The translations under genes and the position numbers were made by a program. The notes under the pieces are model-generated. The model did no database searches and had not been told where the DNA came from. It was given only the letters and a program-made list of their open reading frames with translations. From the NCBI GenBank assembly GCA_035533595.1, contig DATLTN010000069.1, forward strand, positions 1 through 37,461: a stretch of DNA of 37,461 bases. The letters are read 5' to 3'. Below are positions 1 through 37,380 of the stretch, one piece after another. Within the stretch, counting starts at the first letter, position 1; every line of letters begins with the position of its first letter. This stretch comes from Acidimicrobiales bacterium (GTDB lineage: Bacteria; Actinomycetota; Acidimicrobiia; Acidimicrobiales; Bog-793).

Positions 1-351
1 GCAAGCGAAACCAACAAGAAAGGCGATAGCAGCTGGACAGCAGAGCTCATCAGTCGCATGTTCAATGAGTCTGCAGAAGCGATGCAACAGATGCTCCGCC
101 TGCTTGCGGACGCTGACGGCGACGAAGTGTCGACAAATGAGATCGCATCCCGGCTCGGTCTGCCGAAGGGTGCGATGTCGGTTGCCGGGATGGCCGGCGC
201 GCTTGGTCGCCGAGTCTCAAGTCGCTACGGCATGTCCGGGCTCCCATGGACAACGAGGTGGCGCTTTATTGACCCGGCCGACGAGGCTCAGGGCACCGAA
301 ACGCTGTTTGCCATGCCGCCCTGGGTGTGCAAACTGATTCGCGAGAGCTAG
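1..351 (+). CDS. DUF6416-like hypothetical protein, 5' end outside the window
   Basis: The reading frame is open from base 1, and the residues before the ATG at 58 (including a DSSWTAELISR stretch) read as normal protein, so the gene probably starts upstream of the window. The visible part is 116 codons ending in TAG. It has a small helical segment resembling a winged helix (ADGDEVSTNEIASRLGLPKG, then VAGMAGALGRRV), followed by PWTTRW and a C-terminal FAMPPWVCKLI. This matches my memory of the DUF6416 family, small actinobacterial proteins often found near integrases or in genomic islands. No enzymatic motif is visible, and the HTH-like segment suggests DNA binding only as inference. The gene is convergent with the integrase and shares a hairpin terminator with it, so it is probably cargo of the integrated element. 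Base composition is less GC-rich than in the genes to the right. Confidence 0.6.
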   Translation, partial: ASETNKKGDSSWTAELISRMFNESAEAMQQMLRLLADADGDEVSTNEIASRLGLPKGAMSVAGMAGALGRRVSSRYGMSGLPWTTRWRFIDPADEAQGTETLFAMPPWVCKLIRES

Positions 352-436: not shown

Positions 437-2050
437 TCACGATCTCCCAGAATTGGCGTGCCGGGCACTGTGGACGACATTGCCGAGGTGTTCCGCTGCT
501 TCACGGCGTGCCGACATGCGCGCCTTGCTGTAGTGCTTCGCCAAGACTTCCGGCGAGTGCCCTTGGCGCTGTGCGACCACGCTGATGTTGAATCCGGCGT
601 CGAGAAGTTCGCTCGAGGTGAACTTGCGAAAGCCATTGAACGACAGGTTGAAGTTCAGGCCGAGCCCTGTCGCTTGCTCTCGCCTGAGAGCGGCCTCACA
701 CGCCTGCTGCGCCCATTCCGCCGTGCGGTTGAGGCTCCGCCCGACGTCGGAGTAGGACATCGCCGCACCGTCACGTGGCTTCGGCCCCCGGCGGCCCGTC
801 CGGTCGACGCTCCCCGATCGTCGCAGATGCAGCGCTTCGTTCTCCAACGAGATCGTCTCGGGCCGCTTGTCCTCGACGCCGAGATACTCCTTCAACACCC
901 TGAGACGCTTGCTCACGCGATCCGGGAGCATCGGCTTCGAACCGTCCGGCTCTGACGGAAAGAGGAACGGATCCTCGGCCGTCCGCGCGCCCACCGAGGT
1001 GCAGCGTTCCTCGATCTCCTCGAGCAGGCCGCACAGCAACCCAAGCGTCTCCCCGTCGAGCGGAACCTCCCGGCGGTGCTGCGCGCGCTTCGGATCCTTC
1101 AGACTCCCATCGACGTCCGCTGCCGCCCACACCCATAGCGAGGAGCGAGCGAGGTCGAGGTCCGAACGTCGCAATGCGACCAGCTCCCCGAGTCGGGCTC
1201 CGGTCGTCGCCGCGAGAACGAGGATCGGTGCGACCTCCGGTGTGTGTTCGAACGCGGTGTGCAAGATCAGGGCGATGTCGTCGGCCTCCGGGGGCAGCCG
1301 CTCCCTCGGGACATAGCTGCTCTTCGGCATCTGAAAGTCGAGCAGGGGGTGGTGCATGACCTTGCCGGTCCGCCGGCCCCACTTGAAGGCGCCCGAGAGC
1401 AGCGCTTTGACCTGGTTCATCGAGCCGCTGCTCTGCCCCGCGCGCCGCATCCGTGCGAAGCACCGGTCGATGTCATCGGGCGTGACCCGTCGCGCCGACT
1501 TCGTGCCGATGATCGGGAAGACCCAGTTCCTTGCCGAGCTCTCGTAGCGGTAGATCGTTCGCTGTTCCCTGCCTTGTTCCTCGAGATAGGCCAGGTAGTG
1601 CCCGATGAGGTCTTCGAGCGTCCACCGCGTCGCGTCCTGGTCCTGCGGCACAGCGCGCCGGAGCTGCTCGCGGAGCAACCCGCGGACGAACTCGACGTCC
1701 TCCTTCGCGCCGCGAACGCGCCGATGGGCGCGGTTGCCGTTGACCTGAACCTGAATACGGGTCGTTCTCGTTCGCTGCTGCGGCGGCCGCCGGCGTGCCC
1801 GAGCCGACATGCTGAGGTGCTCGACCCGCACGCACAACGGCTCGTCCGGACACGGGTTGACGACTTCATTTGCGGCGAGCGGGCCGTGTTTGAGTTCCCA
1901 GGCGCGCCGGTGCGCCGTCACTTGCTTCCCATCGACCTGCAGCTTCCCCGTTCCGCGTTGCGGGTTCCGGCTGCCGAGCCACAGGTGGTGCTCGCCGGTG
2001 CGGTCGACGTGGGACTCGAAGCGCTCGAGGGCCTGTCGGTCGTCTGCCAC
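437..2050 (-). CDS. Tyrosine recombinase with degenerate HNH-like N-terminus (phage/ICE-type integrase)
   Basis: A 537-residue site-specific recombinase predicted to integrate or excise a mobile element. The GTG start at 2050 is preceded by GGAGG at 7-nt spacing. A longer reading from 2335 would run through the tRNA and is rejected. Residues 5-80 resemble an HNH_3-type fold (AHRRAWELKHGP, then VVNPCPDEPLCVRVEHL), but the usual catalytic His before the first Cys is Asn65. Residues about 141-225 are a SAM-like core-binding domain and 255-512 the catalytic domain. Box I Arg is R286 (TTGARLGEL). Box II reads N472-G-F-R475 where most members have HxxR. H498 (QGHS) and nucleophile Y507 (KHYSKA) are present. 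Residues about 400-465 are an insertion with an HTH-like helix pair (MSYSDVGRSLNRTAEWAQQA). The gene lies 144 bp from the tRNA-Lys 3' end, a typical int/att arrangement. I recall similar integrases with the HTH insertion in mycobacteria, so the family probably exists. Substrate range is unknown. Confidence 0.9.
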   Translation of the reverse strand: MADDRQALERFESHVDRTGEHHLWLGSRNPQRGTGKLQVDGKQVTAHRRAWELKHGPLAANEVVNPCPDEPLCVRVEHLSMSARARRRPPQQRTRTTRIQVQVNGNRAHRRVRGAKEDVEFVRGLLREQLRRAVPQDQDATRWTLEDLIGHYLAYLEEQGREQRTIYRYESSARNWVFPIIGTKSARRVTPDDIDRCFARMRRAGQSSGSMNQVKALLSGAFKWGRRTGKVMHHPLLDFQMPKSSYVPRERLPPEADDIALILHTAFEHTPEVAPILVLAATTGARLGELVALRRSDLDLARSSLWVWAAADVDGSLKDPKRAQHRREVPLDGETLGLLCGLLEEIEERCTSVGARTAEDPFLFPSEPDGSKPMLPDRVSKRLRVLKEYLGVEDKRPETISLENEALHLRRSGSVDRTGRRGPKPRDGAAMSYSDVGRSLNRTAEWAQQACEAALRREQATGLGLNFNLSFNGFRKFTSSELLDAGFNISVVAQRQGHSPEVLAKHYSKARMSARREAAEHLGNVVHSARHANSGRS

Positions 2051-2087: not shown

Positions 2088-2155
2088 CTGTATCGCCCGG
2101 CTGTATCGGAGGCTGTATCGCGCCACTTTTCGAGAAGCGAACCACCGCGATACAG
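2088..2155. repeat. CTGTATCG repeat cluster between integrase and tRNA attachment site
   Basis: Three direct copies of CTGTATCG start at 2088, 2101 and 2113 (spacing 13 and 12 bp), and one inverted copy (CGATACAG) lies at 2148-2155. All sit in the 144 bp between the integrase start codon and the tRNA-Lys. This is where arm-type recombinase sites, excisionase sites or an integrase operator would be expected. Function is inferred from position and repetition only. Confidence 0.6.
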
Positions 2156-2193: not shown

Positions 2194-2269
2194 TGGTGCG
2201 CCCCGAGGGACTTGAACCCTCAACCTGCGGATTAAGAGTCCGTTGCTCTGCCAATTGAGCTAGAGGCGC
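2194..2269 (-). tRNA. tRNA-Lys (anticodon CUU)
   Basis: A complete cloverleaf reads on the minus strand. The acceptor stem is GCGCCTC paired with GGGGCGC (one U-G), with discriminator A at 2197 and an encoded CCA at 2196-2194. The D-arm is GCTC/GAGC. The anticodon loop is CTCTTAA with anticodon CTT, reading AAG (lysine). The T-arm has GGGTTCAAGTCCC. The top pair of the anticodon stem is an A-C mismatch. The 3' end faces the integrase, so the tRNA 3' half probably serves as attB/attL of the element to its left. The other att copy would lie outside the window. Confidence 0.96.
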
Positions 2270-37005: not shown

Positions 37006-37356
37006 GGGGGTGACTGGCTTCGACTTCGGTCGTCAATATGGGAGAAGCGAGCCGTGGTCTCCGGAGCCACGTTAAAGAGCCGGAACCATAAAACAAACGC
37101 CGAGCCCAAGCTCGCGCTTGCTGCCTAACTAGCAGCAACGTCTGCCCGGCCCCAGCCCTGCGGGTCGATTCCAGGCGTCATTTAGTAGGGCTTACCTGAA
37201 GGTCATCGCCAGTGTGGCCATCAGGGACATTTCAGCTGGCTAGGGACCCGCAGATGTGCCGACTGCGAGGCGGGACCCGAAACTAAGCATTCGGCTGCGC
37301 TCGGAGAAGGCCCATTGCGAAGCTGAAGGACCCGGGTTCGATTCCCGGCACCTCCA
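37006..37356 (+). ncRNA. ssrA: Transfer-messenger RNA (tmRNA)
   Basis: The 5' end GGGGGTGACTGGCTTCGAC and the 3' end CCGGGTTCGATTCCCGGCAC form the tRNA-like part. The acceptor stem is GGGGGTG (37006-37012) with CACCTCC (37349-37355), with one wobble pair, then discriminator A; the CCA is not fully encoded (CCG). The tag reading frame reads ACA-AAC-GCC-GAG..., giving T-N-A-E-P-K-L-A-L-A-A, then TAA at 37126-37128. The LALAA ending is the usual proteolysis signal. The resume codon is inferred by alignment with E. coli GCA-AAC. It follows smpB, a common pairing. Confidence 0.95.
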
Positions 37357-37380
37357 CCGCGAGATGTTCACGAAATGACG

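Follow-up and report, generated by a model that had tools for sequence, protein, structure and literature searches.

A degenerate HNH-type module as the probable arm-site reader of a tRNA-Lys-associated tyrosine recombinase family in Acidimicrobiia

The locus and its integrase

The window, that is the whole stretch of DNA analysed here, spans 37,461 nucleotides and makes up one entire contig (G000:C69) of a 2.8 Mb Acidimicrobiales assembly. Its left end carries a tyrosine recombinase gene whose GTG start codon is preceded, 7 nt upstream, by the sequence GGAGG (Table 1). A tRNA-Lys gene lies on the 5' side of the integrase gene and likewise adjoins nearly all intact copies of this gene in other genomes; a short array of repeats is found between the two. 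Since the integrase sits beside the 3' end of the tRNA, the element begins at the tRNA and extends leftwards off the contig. A tmRNA gene with the tag AEPKLALAA occupies the opposite end of the window (37006-37358).

Table 1. Coordinates of the features at the integrase locus of the window
Feature	Position	Strand	Basis
Open reading frame within the presumed element, 97 aa	58..351	+	no NCBIfam match
Tyrosine recombinase (integrase) CDS, 537 aa, GTG start at 2050	437..2050	-	open frame, PF00589, phrog_1, AlphaFold model
Box II, N472-x-x-R475	626..637	-	alignment
HTH-like insertion in catalytic domain, residues ~394-463, clade A only	662..871	-	alignment, helices in model
Core-binding (SAM-like) domain, residues 142-240	1331..1627	-	weak Pfam Phage_int_M / SAM_3 matches, PDB 2kkp (2.4e-4), model
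Arm-binding (AB) domain, residues 92-134	1649..1777	-	alignment, two strands and a helix in model
HNH-like module, residues 1-82	1805..2050	-	PHROG HNH profiles, AlphaFold, BFVD matches, alignment
Beta-hairpin of the HNH-like module, residues 34-47, proposed DNA reader	1910..1951	-	covariation peak with array
Third direct repeat, CGATACAG	2088..2095	-	
Second direct repeat, CGATACAG	2101..2108	-	
First direct repeat, CGATACAG	2113..2120	-	
Inverted repeat copy, 35 bp from first direct copy	2148..2155	+	
tRNA-Lys (CTT), presumed attachment site	2194..2269	-	ARAGORN, same neighbour in relatives

The catalytic domain is recognised by Pfam (PF00589, 2e-11) and by the PHROG integrase family phrog_1 (9e-46), and the full AlphaFold model of the protein matches the Tn1549 and lambda integrases. 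The initial annotation had singled out three features, a degenerate HNH_3-type N-terminus, an HTH-like insertion and an NxxR sequence at box II, and all three were confirmed by profiles, alignment and structure prediction. R286, H498 and Y507, which it had listed as retained, are indeed in place in the alignment, as are N472-x-x-R475 and the beta-hairpin lysine; across the family the arginine of box I, the lysine, the arginine of box II, the His/Trp position and the tyrosine nucleophile are kept. The box II histidine, a conserved but not strictly defining residue, is replaced by N472 in the window and by leucine in most relatives. The first histidine of the catalytic pentad is only weakly conserved in the IntBPP-1 subgroup (PMC8138268), and its absence therefore does not exclude membership of the tyrosine recombinases. 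Aligned across relatives, box II reads NxxR in the window protein and its nearest kin (L007/L048), LxxR in clades A and B1 and HxxR in clade B2 (L087-L089; clades described below). The asparagine is thus particular to a small group, but NxxR is not unusual in itself, because the histidine has been replaced, mostly by leucine, in nearly the whole family.

Two further domains of the window protein depart from the common plan. Its AB domain lacks the first strand, the segment G-S-M/L-R..P-G-x-W-K-L of the relatives being missing from the alignment, and is modelled as two strands and a helix where an AB domain has three strands and a helix; the relatives possess the whole segment. The HTH-like insertion is real: it is missing from the sister clades B1 and B2, and its helices (433-439 and 444-461) are present in the AlphaFold model. 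The insertion of one relative matches HTH_23 weakly (0.008, below cut-off). The suggestion that the insertion links the protein to mycobacterial integrases found no support, as a query made of the insertion plus the C-terminus had no match among 50,697 phage records or 72,556 plasmids.

Relatives and the mobile element

Genome sweeps at the level of class (296 genomes), order (397) and phylum (396), together with a scan of 84,980 species genomes, recovered the same protein almost only from Acidimicrobiia MAGs or from MAGs labelled just Actinomycetota or Actinomycetes; one broken copy occurs in a MAG labelled Rubrobacter. Nineteen full or nearly full relatives, nearly all from Acidimicrobiia, share the HNH-like N-terminus, and an alignment of 20 proteins including the window protein, over most of their length, resolves three clades: A, to which the window protein belongs and which carries the HTH-like insertion, and B1 and B2, which are devoid of it. 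Among the matches read, a profile of the N-terminus searched against the 397 genomes of the order (E <1e-20) picked up nothing but integrases, along with truncated or broken reading frames of that kind. The N-terminus is thus routine among relatives in the order, which form one family, an outcome that the initial annotation had named as refuting its view; outside the order the fusion was hardly found. Broken integrase copies with N-terminal deletions or frameshifts were encountered as well (L007/L048 in G287, L050 in G482, L061 and L071), several of them still at tRNA-Lys. In another observation, the B2 members L087, L088 and L089 combine a clade-A-like HNH module and array with a catalytic domain that is distant and retains HxxR; it seems that N-terminal module and array are passed between integrases as one unit.

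The nature of the element is best judged from its relatives. A second copy of the tRNA end lies 6.6 kb downstream in G087 (L038) and 9.5 kb downstream in L088; none was found in the window's own assembly. Between the tRNA-end repeats of L088 lies a long MobF-like relaxase/helicase gene, homologues of which occur in L074, L084 and L089, and L075 encodes a MobF relaxase scoring 210.6 bits against a curated cut-off of 100. By their gene content the relatives' elements look like integrative mobilizable elements. Truncated by the end of the contig, the window element is classified by analogy with these relatives; it is most likely a small, mobilizable integrative element at the tRNA-Lys 3' end. A prophage identity was considered and dropped: the elements are not evidently prophages, and the phage, plasmid and IMG/VR collections contained no full relative. 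ARAGORN also predicts tRNA-Lys (CTT) genes on the opposite strand inside two integrase genes (L077:10695-10777 and L044:2192-2274, both on the minus strand); their anticodon position is odd and they are perhaps false.

An N-terminal module of nuclease descent

The N-terminus of the window protein matches two PHROG families of HNH endonucleases, phrog_1872 (2.8e-14, residues 6-113) and phrog_826 (3.3e-13, residues 5-92). The Pfam HNH_3 match of the window protein itself (5.6e-4) falls below the cut-off, and that of the relative L043 lies above it (27.6 vs 24.8 bits). AlphaFold, supplied with 13 family sequences, models residues 1-87 at a mean pLDDT of 89 as a helix, a hairpin (35-39/42-45), a second helix (46-55) and two strands (62-65 and 80-83), so that the HNH fold is kept in the model. 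This model has 98 matches at E<=1e-3 among the predicted viral proteins of BFVD; the top 50 have TMq values of 0.63-0.83, and those among them that bear a name are almost all phage HNH nucleases. The leading solved structures are I-PpoI, Smad MH1, NFI and I-HmuI, all of them weak matches (Foldseek E 0.1, VIA Z about 6); no family reached a Z of 8 or more in VIA-align. The comparison with Smad5 MH1 aligns 81 residues at an rmsd of 2.9 with a VIA Z of 6.2 and a Foldseek E of about 0.2, again a weak match. A profile of the N-terminus searched against PDB sequences returned chance matches only.

The active site of the ancestral enzyme has gone. Alignment to intact HNH proteins from phages and Actinomycetota places their catalytic histidine on Asn65 if it is anchored on Cys67, and on Pro66 if it is ungapped. 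Neither position is a conserved histidine in the family, and the loss of the catalytic residue, as originally claimed, therefore stands; the accompanying claim that Asn65 has taken its place depends on the register. The trailing asparagine motif of the intact proteins (ENM, ENS or DNS) is absent, and both the catalytic histidine and the metal-ligand asparagine are missing in the window protein and nearly all of its relatives. By contrast with this active site, the zinc-type frame has been kept. Cys67, Cys73 and His78 never vary among intact members, and the window protein retains all three together with His21, a position that is His or Cys in the family and Cys in the intact enzymes; judged from these residues, the module would still bind zinc. 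In total, 21 module residues are invariant among the 13 sequences. By fold and descent the module is a member of the HNH_3 or His-Me finger group; as an active enzyme it is not.

The repeat array beside the tRNA

In nearly every member, the stretch from the tRNA-Lys to the integrase gene harbours one inverted and usually three direct copies of an 8-bp motif. According to an automatic search with fixed geometry, the direct repeats are mostly spaced 11-13 bp apart and the inverted copy lies mostly 32-37 bp upstream; the first direct copy is located 36-190 bp before the integrase start. The array scored above the best of 120 shuffles (28.5; shuffle mean 22.4) in 19 of 24 upstream regions. The motifs of L074, L084, L085 and L173 were read by eye, the automatic search having chosen another chain there. 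The motif varies between elements: it is GATACAGC in the window, GATGCACC in L076 and GATAGACT in L086, with GATACACC, GATAGCCC, GAGGAACC and CGGTAACC in others, and the clade B1 motifs are NATAGACT or GTTAGACT. In the two elements whose other end is known, the repeat of the left array was not found at the far end, making the array one-sided, unlike that of lambda. A likeness to integron attC-type hairpins, raised by the nested inverted repeats that the copies form, was dropped as an explanation because of the array's place beside the tRNA core and its covariation with the protein.

The same genome contains a further pair of window-type arrays (G000:C5:142-228 and 2072-2115; L002 and L005). 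Both are built of GATACAGC repeats and contain an inner inverted repeat; the first has the outer inverted copy in addition. Their neighbours are toxin-antitoxin-like and HEPN-like genes, and neither an integrase nor a tRNA gene lies close by. A second type of direct repeat, resembling CGCGTATC and spaced 12-13 bp apart, is seen at the far ends of two elements (L038:9200-9450 and L088:19000-19245) and before the tRNA end in L082, and a copy of CGCGTATC also lies within the left array of L073 and L049. These repeats are possibly sites for the arm-binding domain or for an excision factor.

What the array is for bears directly on the role of the module. It is conceivable, if unlikely, that the HNH-like module reads the repeats as an autoregulator, the copies being operators for integrase transcription that take no part in recombination. 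The array does occupy the short stretch between tRNA and integrase start where the promoter must lie, no copy of its repeat was seen at the far end of either complete element, and the additional arrays of this genome have no integrase nearby. A plain operator, however, would not need four copies at fixed spacing, and direct repeats about a helical turn apart, with an inverted copy beside the tRNA core, have the geometry of arm-type sites. We therefore regard arm-site recognition as the better reading of the array.

Covariation of module and array

The relation between protein and DNA was assessed by comparing pairwise motif similarity with pairwise identity for each protein domain (Spearman). 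Among the 13 members of clades A and B2 the correlation is 0.85 for the HNH-like domain and 0.89 for its hairpin (residues 34-47), against 0.27 for the AB, 0.07 for the core-binding and 0.06 for the catalytic domain. In the same 13 members, the partial correlation of the module given the distance of the core-binding and catalytic domains is 0.88 (0 of 5000 permutations), a test that ignores kinship, and a register-free comparison of the motifs gave the same result. With all 19 members the module reaches 0.74 (partial 0.73), pooled figures that are inflated by the split of clade B1 from the rest. As this split dominates the column scan over all clades, the analysis also drew on restricted member sets. 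Residues 37-50, on the beta-hairpin, emerged from a blind scan along the entire protein as the best 14-residue window in both member sets. The best window outside the module attains 0.59, and for random picks of 73 other columns the maxima are 0.29 and 0.48.

Of four members first held out, two fit well (0.85 and 0.64), and L173 (0.33) and L082 (0.25) fit weakly. Eight members added later are mostly fragments whose motifs and alignment were set by hand; with them the peak stays at 37-50 and falls to 0.70 (0.64 without near-duplicates), and the window 34-47 falls to 0.62 (0.53 without near-duplicates). In this enlarged set no residue-base pair is stronger than that of residue 36 and base 5 (z 8.6): of 15 members with arginine or lysine at position 36, 14 have C5, against none of the 12 with any other residue there. 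An arginine that reads a G would be expected to favour just such a C:G pair. Residue 43 is glutamine in all seven members with GATACAC or GATACAG, and asparagine or histidine in members with GATGCACC, the asparagine occurring in two distant clades; aspartate, serine, threonine, glutamate, leucine and valine accompany other motifs.

Because the repeats adjoin the 5' end of the gene, some of the correlation may come from linkage. Taken to its limit, this would reduce the covariation to hitchhiking, in which the 5' end of the integrase gene and the adjacent non-coding DNA diverge or move together with no contact between protein and repeats. Array and module do lie within a few hundred base pairs of each other, and the clade-A-like module and array on the distant catalytic domain of B2 point to an exchange of blocks. 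Yet the correlation rises from 0.41 at the first residues, nearest the array, to 0.91 at 38-51 and drops to about 0.3 or less by 66-70, still inside the module, a profile that linkage to the array alone would not produce. The correlation also holds within clade A alone (0.88), where a few catalytic-domain columns rank high too. We consider hitchhiking improbable as the whole explanation, somewhat more so than the operator reading, and recognition of the repeats by the hairpin accounts better for the profile.

A nuclease remnant as probable arm-site reader

Taken together, sequence, model and covariation suggest that the gene encodes the integrase of a tRNA-Lys element and that its dead HNH_3-type module probably reads the attachment-site array as an arm-site reader. 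The N-terminal 82 or so residues would descend from a zinc-bearing endonuclease of the His-Me finger type that lost its catalytic histidine and metal-ligand asparagine and kept its fold, the three invariant zinc-type ligands and a fourth, Cys or His. Residues 36, 38 and 43 of the hairpin would enter the major groove and read each 8-bp repeat, each repeat being bound by a single integrase protomer. On the hairpin, these positions would correspond to Arg74, Gln76 and Lys81 of Smad. The module would replace or supplement the usual arm-binding domain, of which the window protein has a shortened version, and catalysis would be left to the ordinary C-terminal domain (R286, the lysine, R475, H498 and Y507) despite N472. 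The initial proposal of an arm-site recognition module thus appears probable, given the predicted HNH fold and a hairpin that covaries with the repeats beside the gene; its variant, recognition of the tRNA site, found no support, subclades that differ in module and repeats all using tRNA-Lys.

Two lesser alternatives concern the module itself. That the protein is an ordinary integrase dragging along a decaying, functionless N-terminal remnant is very unlikely: broken copies of the family exist (L007, L050, L061 and L071), but intact copies in three clades have kept the module, 21 of its residues do not vary in 13 sequences, and a functionless remnant would not track the repeats. That the module still cuts DNA, for instance nicking the target to aid integration, is less plausible still, for despite the retained fold and Cys/His positions, and a histidine at position 65 in the single member L043, neither candidate position holds a conserved histidine and the downstream asparagine motif of the intact relatives is gone.

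Beyond the arm-site reading as such, we incline, with less assurance, to a broader view: that a dead homing-endonuclease domain has become the integrase's sequence-specific array reader, an independent bacterial parallel of Smad MH1, in which the link between hairpin residues 36 and 43 and bases 5 and 4 evolves rapidly among elements that share one tRNA target. What makes the family interesting is the putative reader made from a degraded nuclease, together with the covariation, all of it computational, rather than NxxR. Arm-site recognition sets the direction and specificity of integrases; if the reading is true, the family offers a set of naturally occurring hairpins, each with its own target repeat, in which the link from residue to base is directly testable.

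Comparison with known systems

The family shares with integrases of the lambda and Tn1549 type (PMC8138268) the AB, core-binding and catalytic domains, the catalytic Arg, Lys, Arg, His and Tyr, and a gene beside a tRNA with a repeat array near the core. It differs from them in the extra HNH-derived module before the AB domain, in the replacement of the box II histidine by leucine or asparagine, in the HTH-like insertion of clade A and in the shortened AB domain of the window protein. The survey of complex tyrosine recombinases does not contain the word HNH (Smyshlyaev et al. 2021, PMC8138268), and no HNH-integrase fusion was found in the open-access literature searched. The integrases of Fionnbharth and kindred actinobacteriophages (PMC10865867) are likewise tyrosine integrases with arm-type sites and tRNA-Lys targets, but their N-terminal domain is described as arm-type and lambda-like. 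The matches of the window protein among phages extend over about 43% of its length (the best over residues 99-329), with an identity of about 26%.

With HNH_3-type phage endonucleases (PF13392; phrog_1872 and phrog_826) the module has in common the fold, the motifs AHR.AWE..HGP and CV..xHL and the Cys/Cys/His positions. Unlike them, it is devoid of the catalytic histidine and the trailing asparagine motif, has one residue more between the two cysteines and is fused to an integrase.

The closest functional analogy is with Smad MH1 and NFI, where an endonuclease-like fold without catalysis serves as a DNA reader. This is a comparison of how the domains work, with weak structural scores and no membership at the sequence level, and the reader is attached to an integrase here and to a transcription factor there. 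Smad MH1 contacts bases through two residues of strand 2, Arg74 (a G) and Gln76, and through Lys81 of strand 3 (PMC5727232). MH1 has been described as a degraded homing endonuclease (Grishin 2001, as cited in PMC4999995 and PMC4256011), and the integrase family, if our reading is true, would be a bacterial case of the same passage from selfish nuclease to DNA-binding domain that has been proposed for Smad MH1.
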